DNA from: an uncultured Spirochaetales bacterium
GTDB taxonomy: Bacteria > Spirochaetota > Spirochaetia > Sphaerochaetales > Sphaerochaetaceae
Assembly (NCBI GenBank): GCA_944392695.1
Contig: CALXXN010000005.1
Coordinates: 1-64,000 of the forward strand
DNA: 64,000 bases
Direction: 5' to 3'
Positions 30,720 through 38,930 of this stretch are shown in pieces (the stretch's first letter is position 1; each line of letters begins with the position of its first letter). The notes under the pieces were generated by a model that was not told the DNA's origin, did not search any database, and saw only the letters and a program-made list of their open reading frames with translations. A program made the translations under genes and the position numbers.

Positions 30720-31961
30720 TCATACTCCTTTGGACGCCTCCTGTCCTAGGCCCTTGACATATTCATCCATGCTGCAAGCGACCTTCTTGGCGTAGTTGAC
30801 AGCCTCGACGACAGTACGTGCTCCGAGGACGACATCACCTGCCGCGAAGATCCCCGGATGTGTCGTCTCTCCCTTCTCATCAGTCAGGAGGAGGCCATTG
30901 CGGCTTGGCTTCAGGCCTTCTGTCGTATCAACAAGCTTGCTCTTAGGCCCTTGTGAGATCGCGATGAAGGTCGTATCAGCCTGCACCTGGATTTCCTTGC
31001 CTTCATCGCCGATGACAGAGCCGTCCTCCCCAAGTATGGTGCGCACGAAGACAGGGCCCTCAGGAGTGATCCTGACTGGACGCATCTGGAACTCGAAGCG
31101 TGTTCCTTCAAGCTTGGCGTATTCTATTTCGTCACTGGAGGCATCGCTGACGTTACGCCTTGCGTAAACCGTCACCTCATGACGTCCCGGGGAACGGAGG
31201 ATCGTACGGGCCACGTCCATGGCCGTGTTGCCTGCTCCTATGATCGCGACACGCTGTCCGACATCATAAGCTGAAGGATTGACCAGGAAGTCGATCGCGA
31301 AATGGACATTGCCGAGACTCTCACCAGGGACGGAGAGCTTCTTCGGCCTCCAGACGCCTGTCCCGATGAAGATCGCCTTGTAGCCATCACGCAGGAGGTC
31401 GTCTATGACCAGGGCGCCCCCGATTGTCGTGTTGGGCCGGATCCTGATTCCTAGATCCAGGAGGCGTTTCTTGTAACGGTCGAGTATGCTCTTTGGCAGG
31501 CGGAACTCAGGTATGCCATAGCGCATAACACCACCAATCCTGTCACGGGAGTCGAAAATCGTGACATCATAGCCACGTTTCCTCATCTCGATCGCAATCG
31601 TGATACCTGCAGGTCCAGCCCCGATGACGGCGATCATGTCGCCGTTTGGTGGCTCGCATGCGACCTCGACGCTATCGAGGCAGGTCTCGCTGATATAGTT
31701 CTCAATAGATGAGATGTGGATCCCCTGGCCTTTGCGTGAGAGCACGCAGTGGCCCTCGCACTGCCTCTGGTGGTCGCAGACCAGCGAACAGACCACGGAA
31801 AGCGGATTGTTCTCGAAAAGCATCCTGCCTGCATCAGAGACCCTGTCCTCCCTGAGCATGTGGATCATCCCAGGGATATCGGTATTGATTGGACAGCCTG
31901 TCCTGCACAAAGGCTTCTTGCACTGGAGGCAACGTTCAGCCTCCTCAATGACATGGATCAT
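30720..31961 (-). CDS. NAD(P)H oxidoreductase, glutamate-synthase small-subunit-like
   Basis: 413-residue flavoprotein like GltD or the NfnB/L subunit. The N-terminus has an iron-sulfur cysteine set, RCLQCKKPLCRTGCP at about 10-24 and VCSLVCDHQRQCEGHC near 56-71. FAD binding follows (IGAGPAGIT near 111), then NAD(P) binding (IGAGNTAMD near 237) and GIFAAGDVV near 380. The start ATG 31961 has AAGGAGG upstream. No large glutamate synthase subunit is adjacent, so it may pass electrons for another partner, possibly ferredoxin. Confidence 0.88.
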   Translation of the reverse strand: MIHVIEEAERCLQCKKPLCRTGCPINTDIPGMIHMLREDRVSDAGRMLFENNPLSVVCSLVCDHQRQCEGHCVLSRKGQGIHISSIENYISETCLDSVEVACEPPNGDMIAVIGAGPAGITIAIEMRKRGYDVTIFDSRDRIGGVMRYGIPEFRLPKSILDRYKKRLLDLGIRIRPNTTIGGALVIDDLLRDGYKAIFIGTGVWRPKKLSVPGESLGNVHFAIDFLVNPSAYDVGQRVAIIGAGNTAMDVARTILRSPGRHEVTVYARRNVSDASSDEIEYAKLEGTRFEFQMRPVRITPEGPVFVRTILGEDGSVIGDEGKEIQVQADTTFIAISQGPKSKLVDTTEGLKPSRNGLLLTDEKGETTHPGIFAAGDVVLGARTVVEAVNYAKKVACSMDEYVKGLGQEASKGV

Positions 31962-32055
31962 CCTGCCACTCCTCCTTGGACTTGATGATACCCCCACGTC
32001 AGATGGACGATGCAGACCCAGATCTGCAAAATGCTTTCTCCTTTCAGGCCCGATG

Positions 32056-32070: not shown

Positions 32071-34029
32071 ATGGCCGAACACATGCGCAGCAGCCTCAAC
32101 AAGAGCAGCAAGTCCTACGGGACACTGGTCTTCCCTGCCTCTGCCCCTTCGCGGATCACGGACATACGTACAGCGGAACCAGACAGCCGCTACTTCACCG
32201 TCCGCACCTCCGACTTTCCTGATGGATGCTCATTCCCCTTCCTCTCGGGGACCATTCCAGCCCTGAGCGAGGACAGGGCCCTCCATCCCGGGCAGCCCAT
32301 CATGGCCATATTCGGCCCGGACCATGAGTCCGTCATCCTGGCCCGGCGCTCTTTCAAGGTCGACGTCGTCCCACTGGCCGCAGAGGAGTACGAATCAACC
32401 TTCGCACAAGGTGCCTCGGACAGCCTCTCATGGGGGAATCCGAAGGAGGACAGGGAAGGTCTCCGGCTTGTCAGTTCCACATACAAGGACGAATTCCACT
32501 ACCATGTGAGCCCCGTGCTGATCAGCTGCGAATGCTGGATTGATGGGGAGAAGCTCCATGTAGAGGTCCCCACCCAATGGCCTGCCAACGTCAGGAGGGC
32601 TGTCGCCGCCACATGCCAGATGGCAGAAGATGCGGTCATCGTCCACCAGATGAGTGTCATGCAGCGCTATGACGAGGACCTCATATGGCCATCCATCATG
32701 GCTGTCATAACCGCCAAAGCCTGCCAGAAAGCGGGAATGCCCTGTGTGCTCCGCAGCCATGCCTACAGTGCTTCACCGACAGTTGAGATCCACCGCAACA
32801 CCTGGTGCGCCGAGGACGGCAGCCCAGTCGACGAGGAATGCGAGGCAGTCCTGCACCTTGGTGCCTGGGAACTTGACGACAGGGAGGCGATGAGGCAATG
32901 CCTGGCAGGACTGGAACCAGTCTACAACCTCCAGTCATTCAGGGCCGAGGTCTCTGTCAGACGCTCACCCACCCCGCCCTCCACCTTCTTCCGCGGTTCT
33001 CCGTTCAGCGAGGCCGCCGCATCAGCGGAGATCCATGCCACCAGGATCGCATCAAGCCTGGAGCTGCCGTTTTCAAAATGGAAGAGCTACGCCCGCACTG
33101 GCAAACGCCCCTTCACCGACTACATGCCATCCGTAGACCTTGACAGCCTGCAGGCTTTGAGCGGACCAATAATCGAAGAAAGCGACTTCAACAGGAAGTG
33201 GGCCTCCTATGCCACCCAGACAGATGACTTCTCATTGCTCTCCTTCAACAGGGGCATAGCCTTGGCCGAAGGTGTGAGCGTGGCGGGTTTCTCAACATCC
33301 TTCTCCAGGGAGCATTCCTTCCAGGCGAGGCTCACGCTGACAGAGAAGCAGAACCTGACACTGCTCACCTCCTTCCCCCAGCGCGATGCTTATGCCGCGC
33401 TGATGAAGAAAATGATCGAACTGGAAAGCGACCTCGGGGAGGACAATGAGGCGATAGTCCTCGATAATGATGCGGTCATGCTGGACAGCGGACCCGATGT
33501 CCTTGGCAGGGCCATGGGGCACTTCCCTTCCCAGCTTTCATCGGCGTGCACAAAGCTGCGCCTCCAGGAAAAGGAAGGCAATCCGCCCTTCTCCATCGTC
33601 TTCTCCGCGGACGAGGAGCTGATGCCCTGTGAGTTCGAGCCATCAGGGGCGGCCGCCCTCGTGCTTGAGCTCAGGATGGACTCTGTCAGCTTCACCCCAA
33701 CTGTCGTAGAGGCCTGGCTTGCCACCACGAAGGGCACCTTGAACAACAGGGAGGCCTGCCTTTCAACAATGAGGGAGGAGGTTGCAAGCGCCCTGGCCGA
33801 ATGCGGAGCCAAGCCATCGGAGGATCCGGCAAGGCCATTCAAGATCAACATCACACTGCAGGATGATACAGGACATACGGTGACAGATACGTCTTCTTGT
33901 GTCAGAGGACTTGTGAAGGCCGCCTTCCTTTCGGCCCTTGGGCAATGCGTATCACAGGTTGGAAACAGGTTGCCTGTCAGCGCCGCTGACATCGAAAAGG
34001 CATATAGGAACAGGGAGGGCAAGTCGTGA
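32071..34029 (+). CDS. Xanthine-dehydrogenase-like large subunit lacking molybdopterin motifs
   Basis: 652-residue protein recognised as the molybdopterin-subunit fold by FFRGSPFSEAAASAEIHATRI near residue 308 (counterpart of the MRGPG...FAxE strand), by SFNRGIALAEGV near 395 and by the C-terminal LPVSAADIEKA. It is about 100 residues shorter than usual. The GGxFGxK loop is replaced by MQRYDEDLIWP near residue 205, and the catalytic GxGE is replaced by TSSCVRG near 614. It therefore probably does not bind Moco or hydroxylate a substrate in the usual way. The iron-sulfur and FAD subunits follow in an operon, so a complex still likely forms and may move electrons for another purpose. Confidence 0.75.
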   Translation: MAEHMRSSLNKSSKSYGTLVFPASAPSRITDIRTAEPDSRYFTVRTSDFPDGCSFPFLSGTIPALSEDRALHPGQPIMAIFGPDHESVILARRSFKVDVVPLAAEEYESTFAQGASDSLSWGNPKEDREGLRLVSSTYKDEFHYHVSPVLISCECWIDGEKLHVEVPTQWPANVRRAVAATCQMAEDAVIVHQMSVMQRYDEDLIWPSIMAVITAKACQKAGMPCVLRSHAYSASPTVEIHRNTWCAEDGSPVDEECEAVLHLGAWELDDREAMRQCLAGLEPVYNLQSFRAEVSVRRSPTPPSTFFRGSPFSEAAASAEIHATRIASSLELPFSKWKSYARTGKRPFTDYMPSVDLDSLQALSGPIIEESDFNRKWASYATQTDDFSLLSFNRGIALAEGVSVAGFSTSFSREHSFQARLTLTEKQNLTLLTSFPQRDAYAALMKKMIELESDLGEDNEAIVLDNDAVMLDSGPDVLGRAMGHFPSQLSSACTKLRLQEKEGNPPFSIVFSADEELMPCEFEPSGAAALVLELRMDSVSFTPTVVEAWLATTKGTLNNREACLSTMREEVASALAECGAKPSEDPARPFKINITLQDDTGHTVTDTSSCVRGLVKAAFLSALGQCVSQVGNRLPVSAADIEKAYRNREGKS

Positions 34030-34532
34030 GGATAGAACTCACAGTCGATGGCAAGTACCTCGCGCTTTCGGTGAGCAGTGACAAGCCACTGGACCTCCTC
34101 TTGCAGGAGGATGTCGAGGTCAGGAACCTTCGTGACCACTGCGATGGTGCGATGTGTGGGCAGTGCCTCGTCCTCCTGGACGACAAGGCGGTATTCTCCT
34201 GCCTGACACCGGCCTTCATGGTGCGTGGACGCACGATCACGACCTTCGACGGCTTCCAGCGCACACGTGACTACAGGGACATAGAGAAAGCCTTTGCAAG
34301 CTGCCATATCAGGCCCTGCGAACGCTGCCTGCCAGCGCGCGTCATGTTGATAGAAAGCATAGTCAGACGCTATGAGACAGGGACAGGAGAGCTACAGGAC
34401 GCCGAGGTCCTGCAGGAGGCAGGCCTGGTGCGCTGCCACTGCCTCGACAGCGCGGCCTTCCTTGCCGTTGTCAGGGAAGCACTCGCGAACAGGAGGAAGA
34501 GGAAGAATGTACGTAGAACTAAGATCTCCTAA
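34026..34532 (+). CDS. 2Fe-2S subunit of the XDH-like complex
   Basis: 168-residue electron-transfer protein with both clusters intact. The plant-type ferredoxin cluster uses C39, C44, C47 and C59 (CDGAMCGQC...FSC). The second, helical-domain cluster uses C98, C101, C137 and C139 (CERC...CHC). The GTG start overlaps the stop of the large-subunit gene. The C-terminus ends in a basic tail and overlaps the next start by 26 bases. Retention of all eight cysteines beside a cofactor-less large subunit is notable. Confidence 0.88.
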   Translation: MRIELTVDGKYLALSVSSDKPLDLLLQEDVEVRNLRDHCDGAMCGQCLVLLDDKAVFSCLTPAFMVRGRTITTFDGFQRTRDYRDIEKAFASCHIRPCERCLPARVMLIESIVRRYETGTGELQDAEVLQEAGLVRCHCLDSAAFLAVVREALANRRKRKNVRRTKIS

Positions 34533-35421
34533 CATACATGAACCCGCAAACCTCAACGAGTACAACAACACGATCCTGAACTACCGTGACACAAAGCCCT
34601 TCCTCTGGGCGGGTGGCACCGAAATCATGTCAGAGCCAGGCTTCTACCCTGGACTCAGGGCCAATGTCGAAATCATATCCCTTGCAAAGATCGAGGAGCT
34701 GCACCACTTCCTGCGCAACGACCGTTTCGCCGAATTCGGCTCGATGGTGTCGATTGACGAGATCGCCCAGGCAGGCAAGCTCGTCCTGCCACGCATCCTC
34801 CTTGATACAATCAATGCCACAGCTTCCCGTACGCTGCGCGAGCGTATCACGGTCGGAGGCTCCTTGTGCACACAGCGCATGCGCACGGCCCTTGCCAGTA
34901 CGCTGATGATCCTGGACGCGTCAGCAGAGCTGCGCTATCAGAAGAAGAGGATGCACTCGAAGTGGTTCCAGCTTCAGAGGATTTATGACAAGAACGGCCA
35001 GCTGGACCTGCCGGAAGGGGCCCTGCTCACCAAGGTCCGCATAGCGATCCAGCAATATGACTACCAATACTTCCGCATCGCAGGCGACCCTATGAGGGAA
35101 AAGGAGGATGCCGCCGCACTCGCCATGGTGGCCCGCCTCGAACAGGGCAACATCTCCTACGCCAGGGTGATCATCACGCTGCCGGACAAGGGTTTCATCT
35201 ACAGCCGCGACATGGACAACCTCGTCTCCAGCCTCCAGCTTCCCGCAGGGGACGGACGCCACATCCAGATCGAAGGTTACATGCTGGACCAGGCCAGGGA
35301 AGGTGCAGGAGGACTCAGCCCTCTGAGGGAGGCAAGGATCCGTGGCCTGCTCCACGAACTCCTCATGGACCTCAACGACACGGTGATGAGCCAGAGCTAT
35401 GACAGGGGGCGCCAGGTCTGA
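34507..35421 (+). CDS. FAD-binding subunit of the XDH-like complex (CoxM type)
   Basis: 304-residue flavoprotein. FLWAGGTEIM near residue 36 and ITVGGSLCTQRMRT near 117 match the two FAD-contact loops of the CO-dehydrogenase/XDH medium subunit. The start is taken at ATG 34507 (MYVELRSPNIHEP), inside the end of the iron-sulfur gene, with GGAAGA upstream. The stop is 44 bases before dnaE, which has its own promoter. Confidence 0.85.
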   Translation: MYVELRSPNIHEPANLNEYNNTILNYRDTKPFLWAGGTEIMSEPGFYPGLRANVEIISLAKIEELHHFLRNDRFAEFGSMVSIDEIAQAGKLVLPRILLDTINATASRTLRERITVGGSLCTQRMRTALASTLMILDASAELRYQKKRMHSKWFQLQRIYDKNGQLDLPEGALLTKVRIAIQQYDYQYFRIAGDPMREKEDAAALAMVARLEQGNISYARVIITLPDKGFIYSRDMDNLVSSLQLPAGDGRHIQIEGYMLDQAREGAGGLSPLREARIRGLLHELLMDLNDTVMSQSYDRGRQV

Positions 35422-35465: not shown

Positions 35466-38400
35466 ATGAGTGAGCCTGTAACAGAAAACCAGGGCATGCC
35501 CCGTAGCGGCTTCGTGCACCTGCACAACCACACCGACTTCTCGCTTCTTGATGGCGCGGCCCAGATTCCTGCCTATATCGCCAAATGCAAGGAAATGGGC
35601 ATGGATGCCCTTGCGATCACAGACCATGGCAACATGTATGGCGCCATGAAGTTCTACAAGGCGTGCAAGGCGGCGGGGATCAAGCCCATAATCGGCTGCG
35701 AGTTCTACATGAACCCCCGCGACAGGAGGGACCAGAGCCAGCCTGCCGAAGGGCGTAACAAGAACTACCACCTGATCCTCCTGGCTATGAACGACAATGG
35801 CTACCACCACCTGATGGAGCTCAACAGCCTCGCCAACACTGAAGGTTTCTATTACAAGCCAAGGATTGACGATGAGATCCTCCAGAGCCACAGCGAGGAC
35901 CTGATCTGCCTCTCCGCCTGCCTTGGCGGAGAGATCCTGCAGCTCCTGCTGCATGACCGTTATGATGAGGCTAAGGCCAGGGCCGCCTGGTTCAAGTCCG
36001 TCTTCCCCGGACGCTACTACCTGGAGCTCCAGGACCATGGCCTGCCGGAGCAGAAGAGGACCAACCCGCTCCTGATTCAGATCGCACGCGAACTCGGAAT
36101 CCCACTCGTGTGCACGAACGACATACATTACATCAACCGCGAGGACGCGGATGCCCAGGACACGCTCCTGTGCATAGGCACGAATGCGAAGAAGAGTGAT
36201 GAGAAGCGCATGCGCTTCCCCAATGACAACTTCTACTTCAAGAGCGAGGCGGAGATGCGCTCCATCTTCTCCTACTGTCCAGAAGCGGTCGACAATACAC
36301 GCATCATCGCCGACCAGTGCAACCTGGATGTCGTCTTCCCCGGCCCCCTCCTCCCCGACTTCCAGGTCCCGGAAGGCTTCAAGGATACAGCCGCCTACCT
36401 CATCCACCTTGCTGATGAGGGTTGTGTCAGACGCTATGGTGAGATCACCCCAGCGCTGAGGGAGAGGCTGGACCATGAGCTTGATGTCATCATCAAGATG
36501 CACTTCGAGGGCTACTTCCTGATTGTCCGGGACTATATCTACTGGGCGAAGACCCATGACATCCCTGTCGGACCTGGACGAGGTTCAGGTGCAGGATCCC
36601 TGGTCGCCTACTGCATCGACATCACGGACGTCGACCCAATCAAGTACAACCTGCTCTTCGAACGCTTCCTCAACCCAGAACGTGTCTCGATGCCTGATTT
36701 CGACATCGACTTCTGCTTCGAACGCCGTGGCGAGGTCATCCAATACGTCACAGAGCACTATGGCTCAGACCGTGTCGGCCAGATCTGCACCTTCGGTACG
36801 CTCAAGGCCAAGGCCGTCGTCAAGGATGTCGCCCGGGCCTTGGACATCCCATACGACGAGGCCACGGCGATCTGCAAGCTGATTCCAGATGACACGAAGA
36901 TGACTCTTGCAAAAGCCTTCGCAGACCCCGACATGGGGCCACAGCTCAAGGCGGTCGAGGACCGTGGTGGTGTCTATGCCCAGCTCTTCGACACGGCACG
37001 CCGTCTCGAGGGTGGTGCCAGGCACACCTCCCTGCATGCCGCAGGTGTCGTCATCGGCAAGACCCCGCTGATCGACTACGTCCCCCTCTCCTACGACCCG
37101 AAGACCCACTCAGTGGCAACACAGTACACGATGGACCAGATCGAGGAATGTGGCCTGGTCAAGATGGACTTCCTGGGTCTCAAGACCCTGACACTGATCA
37201 AGCACACGGTCGACCTGATCCACAAGAAGGACCCCTCCTTTGACATCGAGAAAATCGATGAGCAGGACAAGAAGACCTTCGACATGCTCAAGCGGGGAGA
37301 AAGCGAATGCGTCTTCCAGTTTGAATCCGGAGGAATGCAGAAGGTACTCAGGGATGCGCAACCAGAGACAATAGAGGACCTTGTCGCATTGAACGCCCTC
37401 TACCGCCCTGGTCCGATGCAGTACATCGACCGCTTCGTCGCCTGTAAGAACGGACTCCAGCCAATCGAATACGCGGATCCGGAGCTCGAACCCATACTCA
37501 AGACGACCTATGGCGTCATCGTCTATCAGGAACAGGTCATGCAGGTCGCCCAGATCATCGCAGGCTACAGCCTGGGACAGGCCGACATCCTGCGGCGTAT
37601 CATGGGTAAGAAGAAGGTCGAGAAACTGGCTGAGGAGAAGGTCAAGTTCGTCGCAGCTGCCGAGAAGATCGGACGCGACCCCAAGCATGCCCAGGACATC
37701 TTCGAGATGCTGGAGCCCTTCGCCCAGTACGGCTTCAACAAGTCACATGCCGTAGCCTATTCCGTCGTCGCCTACCAGACCGCCTTCCTCAAGGCGAACT
37801 ACCCATCCGAGTTCCTTGCGGCCAACCTGACGAATGAGATGAGCAACCCTGACAAGTTCAAGGACTACCTGGCACTTGCGGATGACATGGGCATCAAGAT
37901 CCTGCCTCCTTCCATCAATGCCTCTGACATGCATTTCAATGTCGTTGGCAATGACATAGTCTACGGTCTCGCAGGCATCAAGAACGTAGGCGAGAACCTG
38001 ACCAAGATGATTGTCGCAGAGCGTGAGGAGAACGGCCCCTACAAGGACTTCATGGACTTCATCTCCCGCCAGGCCGATGGCGTTGCGAACTCCCGTGTCC
38101 TGGAAGCCCTGATCAAGTCCGGCTGCTTCGACTGCCTTGGTGAAGACAGGGCCACATTGATGGCCAACCTTGATGCAGCCCTCTCGTACGACAAGGGCTG
38201 CCGTGAGACCACGGCCTATGGCCAGATCTCCCTCTTCGGGGACGAGGTGGAGCTCGAAGGCTTCCAGTTCCGCCCTGTGGAACCATGGAGCCGCCGGGAG
38301 ATGCTCGACATGGAGAAGGAGCTCATCGGACGCTATGTCTCGGGGCACCCCCTTGATGAGTTCAAAGAGGACATACAACGCTGTGTCTGGGTAGACATCT

Positions 38401-38930
38401 CAAAGCCTGACTCATTGCCATTGGGACGGGACATCAGCCTGATCTGCCAGGTCAGCAACCTGAGGGACTTCAAGACGAAAAAGGGTGACAAGATGGCGAC
38501 GATGACACTGACGAACTACGAGGGTTCGATCGACGCTGTCGCCTTCCCAAAGTCCTATGTACGTTTCGAAGGGAGGTTACATGACGAGGAGATCATGGGC
38601 TTCATCGGACGCTTCTCAAAACGCCGTGATGGCGGGGGCATGCAGTTCGAGGTCTCCGACATCAGGATCCCTGCAGAGCTTCCAAGCGAGGCTGTCAGGC
38701 AGGTCTCCCTGTCCATAGACCCGGAGATCCTTGCCAGCCCGGATGCCGACCGCTATCTTGGAGAGGTGGTCACCTTCCTGCTGGAACATGACGGTGACGT
38801 GCCTGTCAATGCCCACATCGGTGACTCAGAGGATGCCTACGTTGCCTCGGCCTTCAGCATCGGCTACTACAACGCACTGCGCAAAGACCTGATGGCCTTC
38901 CCGATCATCAAGGGCGTCCGTATCGCATAG
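35466..38930 (+). CDS. dnaE: DNA polymerase III alpha subunit
   Basis: 1154-residue replicative polymerase. The N-terminal PHP domain starts VHLHNHTDFSLLDGA (residues 17-31) with its histidines intact. The polymerase active site shows GPGRGSGAGSLVAY near 370 and PDFDIDF near 412, with the two catalytic Asp. Helix-hairpin-helix, OB-fold (about 990-1070) and C-terminal parts follow at normal length. First gene of dnaE-yggT-recG, with ten bases to yggT. Confidence 0.97.
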   Translation: MSEPVTENQGMPRSGFVHLHNHTDFSLLDGAAQIPAYIAKCKEMGMDALAITDHGNMYGAMKFYKACKAAGIKPIIGCEFYMNPRDRRDQSQPAEGRNKNYHLILLAMNDNGYHHLMELNSLANTEGFYYKPRIDDEILQSHSEDLICLSACLGGEILQLLLHDRYDEAKARAAWFKSVFPGRYYLELQDHGLPEQKRTNPLLIQIARELGIPLVCTNDIHYINREDADAQDTLLCIGTNAKKSDEKRMRFPNDNFYFKSEAEMRSIFSYCPEAVDNTRIIADQCNLDVVFPGPLLPDFQVPEGFKDTAAYLIHLADEGCVRRYGEITPALRERLDHELDVIIKMHFEGYFLIVRDYIYWAKTHDIPVGPGRGSGAGSLVAYCIDITDVDPIKYNLLFERFLNPERVSMPDFDIDFCFERRGEVIQYVTEHYGSDRVGQICTFGTLKAKAVVKDVARALDIPYDEATAICKLIPDDTKMTLAKAFADPDMGPQLKAVEDRGGVYAQLFDTARRLEGGARHTSLHAAGVVIGKTPLIDYVPLSYDPKTHSVATQYTMDQIEECGLVKMDFLGLKTLTLIKHTVDLIHKKDPSFDIEKIDEQDKKTFDMLKRGESECVFQFESGGMQKVLRDAQPETIEDLVALNALYRPGPMQYIDRFVACKNGLQPIEYADPELEPILKTTYGVIVYQEQVMQVAQIIAGYSLGQADILRRIMGKKKVEKLAEEKVKFVAAAEKIGRDPKHAQDIFEMLEPFAQYGFNKSHAVAYSVVAYQTAFLKANYPSEFLAANLTNEMSNPDKFKDYLALADDMGIKILPPSINASDMHFNVVGNDIVYGLAGIKNVGENLTKMIVAEREENGPYKDFMDFISRQADGVANSRVLEALIKSGCFDCLGEDRATLMANLDAALSYDKGCRETTAYGQISLFGDEVELEGFQFRPVEPWSRREMLDMEKELIGRYVSGHPLDEFKEDIQRCVWVDISKPDSLPLGRDISLICQVSNLRDFKTKKGDKMATMTLTNYEGSIDAVAFPKSYVRFEGRLHDEEIMGFIGRFSKRRDGGGMQFEVSDIRIPAELPSEAVRQVSLSIDPEILASPDADRYLGEVVTFLLEHDGDVPVNAHIGDSEDAYVASAFSIGYYNALRKDLMAFPIIKGVRIA

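Follow-up and report, generated by a model that had tools for sequence, protein, structure and literature searches.

What can a complex built like a xanthine dehydrogenase (XDH) do once its large subunit has lost the molybdopterin site? The question is raised by three overlapping genes, encoding a large subunit (LS), an iron–sulfur subunit (FeS) and an FAD subunit (FAD), in the window, the whole 64,000-nucleotide stretch of DNA from an uncultured Spirochaetales bacterium analysed here. Taken on its sequences, the trio is a class-wide, misannotated branch of the XDH family without the molybdenum cofactor (Moco). The locus comprises the following features:

30720–31997, minus strand: GltD-like flavoprotein, a divergent neighbour
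32071–34029, plus strand: LS, XDH-like large subunit without a Moco site, 652 residues (PDB profile match, AlphaFold2 and Foldseek, motifs absent)
32659–32691, plus strand: LS residues 197–207, MQRYDEDLIWP, replacing the GGxFGGK Moco loop (alignment with genuine XDHs)
33889–33909, plus strand: LS residues 607–613, TSSCVRG, replacing the catalytic GxGE motif (alignment)
34026–34532, plus strand: FeS, two-cluster [2Fe-2S] subunit, 168 residues, with eight cysteines intact and a basic C-terminal tail
34507–35421, plus strand: FAD, FAD_binding_5 subunit, 304 residues (Pfam, AlphaFold2 model, Foldseek)
35466–38930, plus strand: dnaE, a conserved downstream neighbour outside the complex (synteny, Pfam)

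The FeS gene starts with GTG and meets LS in a GTGA overlap, read directly from the sequence, and FAD (ATG start at 34507, stop at 35421) overlaps FeS by 26 bases. These tight junctions, described in an earlier sequence-only reading of the locus, hold up, and the three genes form an overlapping plus-strand operon. A 349-residue FAD reading frame beginning at 34372 was rejected as an over-extension because the relatives start at the later ATG. A scan of the plus strand between FAD and dnaE found no terminator-like site.

In Pfam, LS matched only MoCoBD_1, weakly (36.7 bits), FAD matched FAD_binding_5 (62.6 bits, 5e-17, run on the longer reading frame) with no CO_deh_flav_C domain found, and the ferredoxin matches of FeS fell below the cut-off. 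A profile of 61 LS sequences retrieved aldehyde oxidase and XDH large subunits from the PDB (E = 1.9e-62), the best matches spanning most of LS, and an FeS profile retrieved small subunits, with 4zoh_C the best at 7.9e-39; at these values the likeness of LS and FeS to XDH is therefore homology and not chance. The AlphaFold2 model of LS (pLDDT 89, pTM 0.91) aligned in Foldseek with XDH and CO dehydrogenase large subunits at a TM-score of about 0.77–0.81, and the FAD model (pLDDT 91, pTM 0.88) matched the medium subunits of quinoline 2-oxidoreductase and CO dehydrogenase. The profile and the models agree with the earlier statement that the large-subunit fold is kept.

The folded LS comprises both halves of the Moco domain, FeS carries two [2Fe-2S] cysteine motifs and the FAD_binding_5 subunit has two glycine loops. 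We regard the trio, on sequence and predicted fold, as a member of the XDH family by descent that fails as a molybdenum hydroxylase. Subunit count, folds, FAD loops and the two [2Fe-2S] motifs are common to the trio and the three-subunit members of the family (quinoline 2-oxidoreductase, CoxLSM, glyceraldehyde oxidoreductase and 4-hydroxybenzoyl-CoA reductase), whereas the trio LS lacks their Moco-binding and catalytic residues.

Alignment with genuine XDHs placed the window’s HQMSVMQRYDEDLIWPSIM opposite TTGGAFGGKEHFPDVL, and DTSSCVRGLVKAAF opposite GMGELVFNGADAAY, bearing out the proposed replacement of the GGxFGxK loop by MQRYDEDLIWP and of the catalytic GxGE by TSSCVRG. Residue conservation was compared between 82 trio LS and 20 genuine XDHs, in which the lost residues are invariant. 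The second glycine of the GGxFGGK loop (198) is kept in 1% of the trio LS and the loop phenylalanine in 7%, the FRG arginine (308) in 2%, the glycine (565) and glutamine (566) of the GQxxGG motif in 1% and 5%, and the catalytic glutamate of GxGE (609) in 21%. The window LS has neither the GGxFGGK loop with the FRG arginine nor the catalytic glutamate expected of a molybdenum hydroxylase, and the absence of a molybdopterin site, claimed for this locus, extends to essentially all family members. Structural positions G264, Y285, E320, G397 and P635 are kept in 91–100% of trio LS (for example G264 in 100%, E320 in 93% and P635 in 94%). Newly conserved residues include W170 (85%), D201 (77%), E272 and Q625. 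D201 stands where genuine XDHs have a loop glycine; it and W170 are inferred, from the motifs that they replace, to point toward the former cofactor pocket. A relic GxGE, as GIGE or GVGE, occurs in some LS of a deep clade (L065, L074, L089, L095, L127 and L132), which fits the descent of LS from a working enzyme.

The two other cofactor sites of the window are intact, as first reported: FeS has all eight cysteines (C39, C44, C47, C59, C98, C101, C137 and C139) and FAD has both loops, AGGT and TVGG. Across the family, 72 of 80 FeS subunits keep all eight cysteines and 8 of 80 lack some or nearly all of them, with the trio still kept. N-terminal cluster ligands are lost in L123 (a Treponema pallidum-like locus) and L131, the C-terminal motif is partly lost in L072, L080 and L129, and most ligands are gone from L065, L066 and L069. 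The glycine loop TxGG of FAD is almost universal in the family, and, judging by the residues retained, no other cofactor site of the trio has changed as little as that for FAD. The FeS subunits also tend to end in a basic tail; in 70 of 80 the last 16 residues carry a net charge of +4 or more.

Cofactor supply was considered next to the loss of the site. The sequence-only reading had called for a look at moa, moe and mob genes and at spirochaetes lacking Moco synthesis. In the genome that carries the window (96.5% complete), MoaC, MoaE and MoeA were not found, nor was MoaA above the cut-off; the Moco biosynthesis that a molybdenum hydroxylase requires is thus missing from this search. Among 101 relatives, MoaC was present in 25, MoeA in 17 and MoaA above the cut-off in 11. 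LS was found in 68 of 76 MoaC-negative and in 22 of 25 MoaC-positive genomes, so retention of the trio does not hinge on Moco synthesis.

About 80 loci, spread over the class Spirochaetia, were read with the order LS–FeS–FAD. An LS homologue is present in 90 of the 101 relatives and, in 123 of 128 genera, in 351 of 391 near-complete Spirochaetia genomes, a figure that counts LS homologues, the Moco loss itself having been read in 82 sequences. Most of the listed absences belong to one family, read as Borreliaceae. High-scoring matches elsewhere in the phylum were rejected as further trios; these are genuine XDHs with intact Moco motifs that score up to 1e-129 with the LS profile, and E-value alone therefore cannot separate the trio from genuine XDHs. 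In the tree, a 100/100 branch separates trio LS from genuine XDHs. Because the trio LS form one branch, Moco was probably lost only once, long ago, provided that the tree is rooted among the genuine XDHs. The closest genuine large subunits by score are a Moco XDH subfamily (L003 and L136–L142) from the window’s own genome and elsewhere in the phylum; it shares side motifs with trio LS, P207, K376 and W549 among them, but keeps GGxFGGK and FRGFG and falls on the opposite side of the 100/100 branch.

Selection on the operon, which had been presumed from its overlaps, is evident in dN/dS values of 0.02–0.2 for LS, FeS and FAD across six species pairs. LS is 45–50% identical to its closest relatives, compared with 62–72% for FeS and FAD, a faster change that is as expected for a loose scaffold. 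In the best explanation, the trio became fixed a single time, in the common ancestor of Spirochaetia or close to it, and selection has maintained it ever since; the class-wide spread makes a core spirochaete function likely.

The trio is also held by genome G129 (1,139,633 bp), which was read as T. pallidum, and in which the locus order is CapD–DegT–LS–FeS–FAD; the syphilis bacterium is apparently among the carriers. Two T. pallidum genes, TPASS_0079 and TPASS_0081, are annotated ‘Xanthine dehydrogenase’ (PMC4403809). That name implies a molybdoenzyme, whereas the Moco motifs are absent from the G129 trio and its FeS also lacks the N-terminal Fe–S ligands. The ‘xanthine dehydrogenase’ names found in many genomes are misleading, as they point to purine metabolism and a molybdenum requirement. 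A literature search on TP0077–TP0081, spirochaete XDH and Moco-free XDH relatives returned annotations only, and no description of Moco loss in these proteins was found in it. The label ‘undescribed’ given to the system fits this literature, in which the homologues are known as genome annotations.

Several readings of the trio’s function were weighed. The one that we favour, tentatively and at something short of an even chance, is a Moco-less XDH offshoot in which FAD and the Fe–S clusters transfer electrons by way of an LS turned scaffold. The three subunits would probably still assemble as in XDH. A small donor, probably NAD(P)H, would reduce the FAD of the medium subunit, from which electrons would run by way of both [2Fe-2S] clusters to the side of LS that formerly held Moco, the direction of flow being predicted. 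LS would no longer catalyse hydroxylation, and its remodelled pocket, with W170, D201 and nearby residues, may serve as a scaffold or as a docking site for an acceptor. Electron transfer had been suggested from the first, and it remains plausible. The kept fold, the Moco loss, selection and the missing Moco genes are the parts of that first interpretation that hold up. The cysteines retained in 72 of 80 FeS subunits and the nearly universal TxGG loop speak for electron transfer; its simple version is opposed by the 8 of 80 FeS subunits without full ligands, and the lack of a CO_deh_flav_C match in FAD also counts against it. As the trio is kept in those lineages, the Fe–S wire is not needed everywhere. 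The same losses of ligands, nearly complete in L065, L066 and L069 and confined to the N-terminal cluster in L123, with all genes staying in place, speak for a non-redox pseudoenzyme acting as a scaffold, ligand sensor or regulatory flavoprotein, with a structural FAD and leftover Fe–S clusters. The mostly structural nature of the conserved LS residues and the rapid divergence of LS point the same way, but retention of eight cysteines in 72 of 80 subunits over deep time would be difficult to account for if they had no redox role, and dN/dS is as low for FeS as for FAD; we consider this pseudoenzyme rather unlikely. That the trio is a decaying remnant without function is scarcely credible. Active-site motifs and, in places, cluster ligands have been lost, but the frames are open with no internal stops across the class, gene order is kept and the dN/dS values are low. 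An LS that still binds Moco or another pterin through an altered site is very improbable: the relic GxGE of some deep-clade LS and the genuine Moco XDHs of many Spirochaetia would allow it, but virtually no member retains the GGxFGGK loop, the FRG arginine or the GQG motif, and the trio is kept equally with and without MoaC.

The neighbouring genes bear on a further reading, in which the trio would carry out novel chemistry on nucleotide sugars or related metabolites together with a CapD-like nucleotide-sugar dehydratase and a DegT aminotransferase. Deep-clade loci have NusG-like, CapD-like and DegT genes ahead of LS, often with a DegT/LS overlap of about 4 bases, and the close DegT orthologues found there adjoin LS; the T. 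pallidum-like genome keeps CapD and DegT ahead of LS. Against this, Sphaerochaetaceae loci, the window included, have neither the dehydratase nor that DegT orthologue beside the trio, and the trio therefore does not need DegT there. Even within the deep clade DegT can be missing, as in L076, where only NusG precedes LS, or shortened to 301 residues, as upstream of LS in L070 (9389–10294, minus strand; G065), where LS, FeS and FAD stay open. Such chemistry is, in our view, unlikely. A bolder reading is possible though doubtful: an ancient spirochaete XDH complex would have lost molybdenum once, remodelled its pocket around the TQWP tryptophan and the D201 motif to accommodate another acceptor or substrate, and been kept class-wide, including in a minimal-genome pathogen. 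If true, a molybdoenzyme scaffold has been converted to molybdenum-free chemistry. It is surprising that a whole molybdoenzyme architecture has been kept for so long after losing its catalytic cofactor. Lineages that also lack Fe–S ligands form a ready-made set of comparisons for finding out on which cofactor the function depends.

Many loci of both clades have dnaE, a YggT-like gene and recG downstream of the trio. The GltD-like flavoprotein was set aside as a partner; it adjoins LS in the closest relatives only. A partnership of DegT with a radical 3-dehydrase of the E1/E3 type was likewise dropped, the PLP lysine motif, read directly, being kept. In several loci among L061–L095, the NusG-like gene heads the CapD–DegT–trio operon and is possibly an operon-specific antiterminator.

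Besides the trio, the window’s own genome encodes three more proteins of XDH type, and in two of these the Moco motifs are intact. These two proteins lie, together with XdhC_CoxI domains, on contigs C18 and C25 of G000 (L002, L003, L101 and L102). The genome accordingly holds molybdoenzymes without visible cofactor synthesis, a situation also suggested in relatives. At L001 (397–3300, minus strand), a fused XDH-like protein of 967 residues has an N-terminal Fe–S domain without cysteines; its GxGE motif reads SISE and GGGYGSK is kept.
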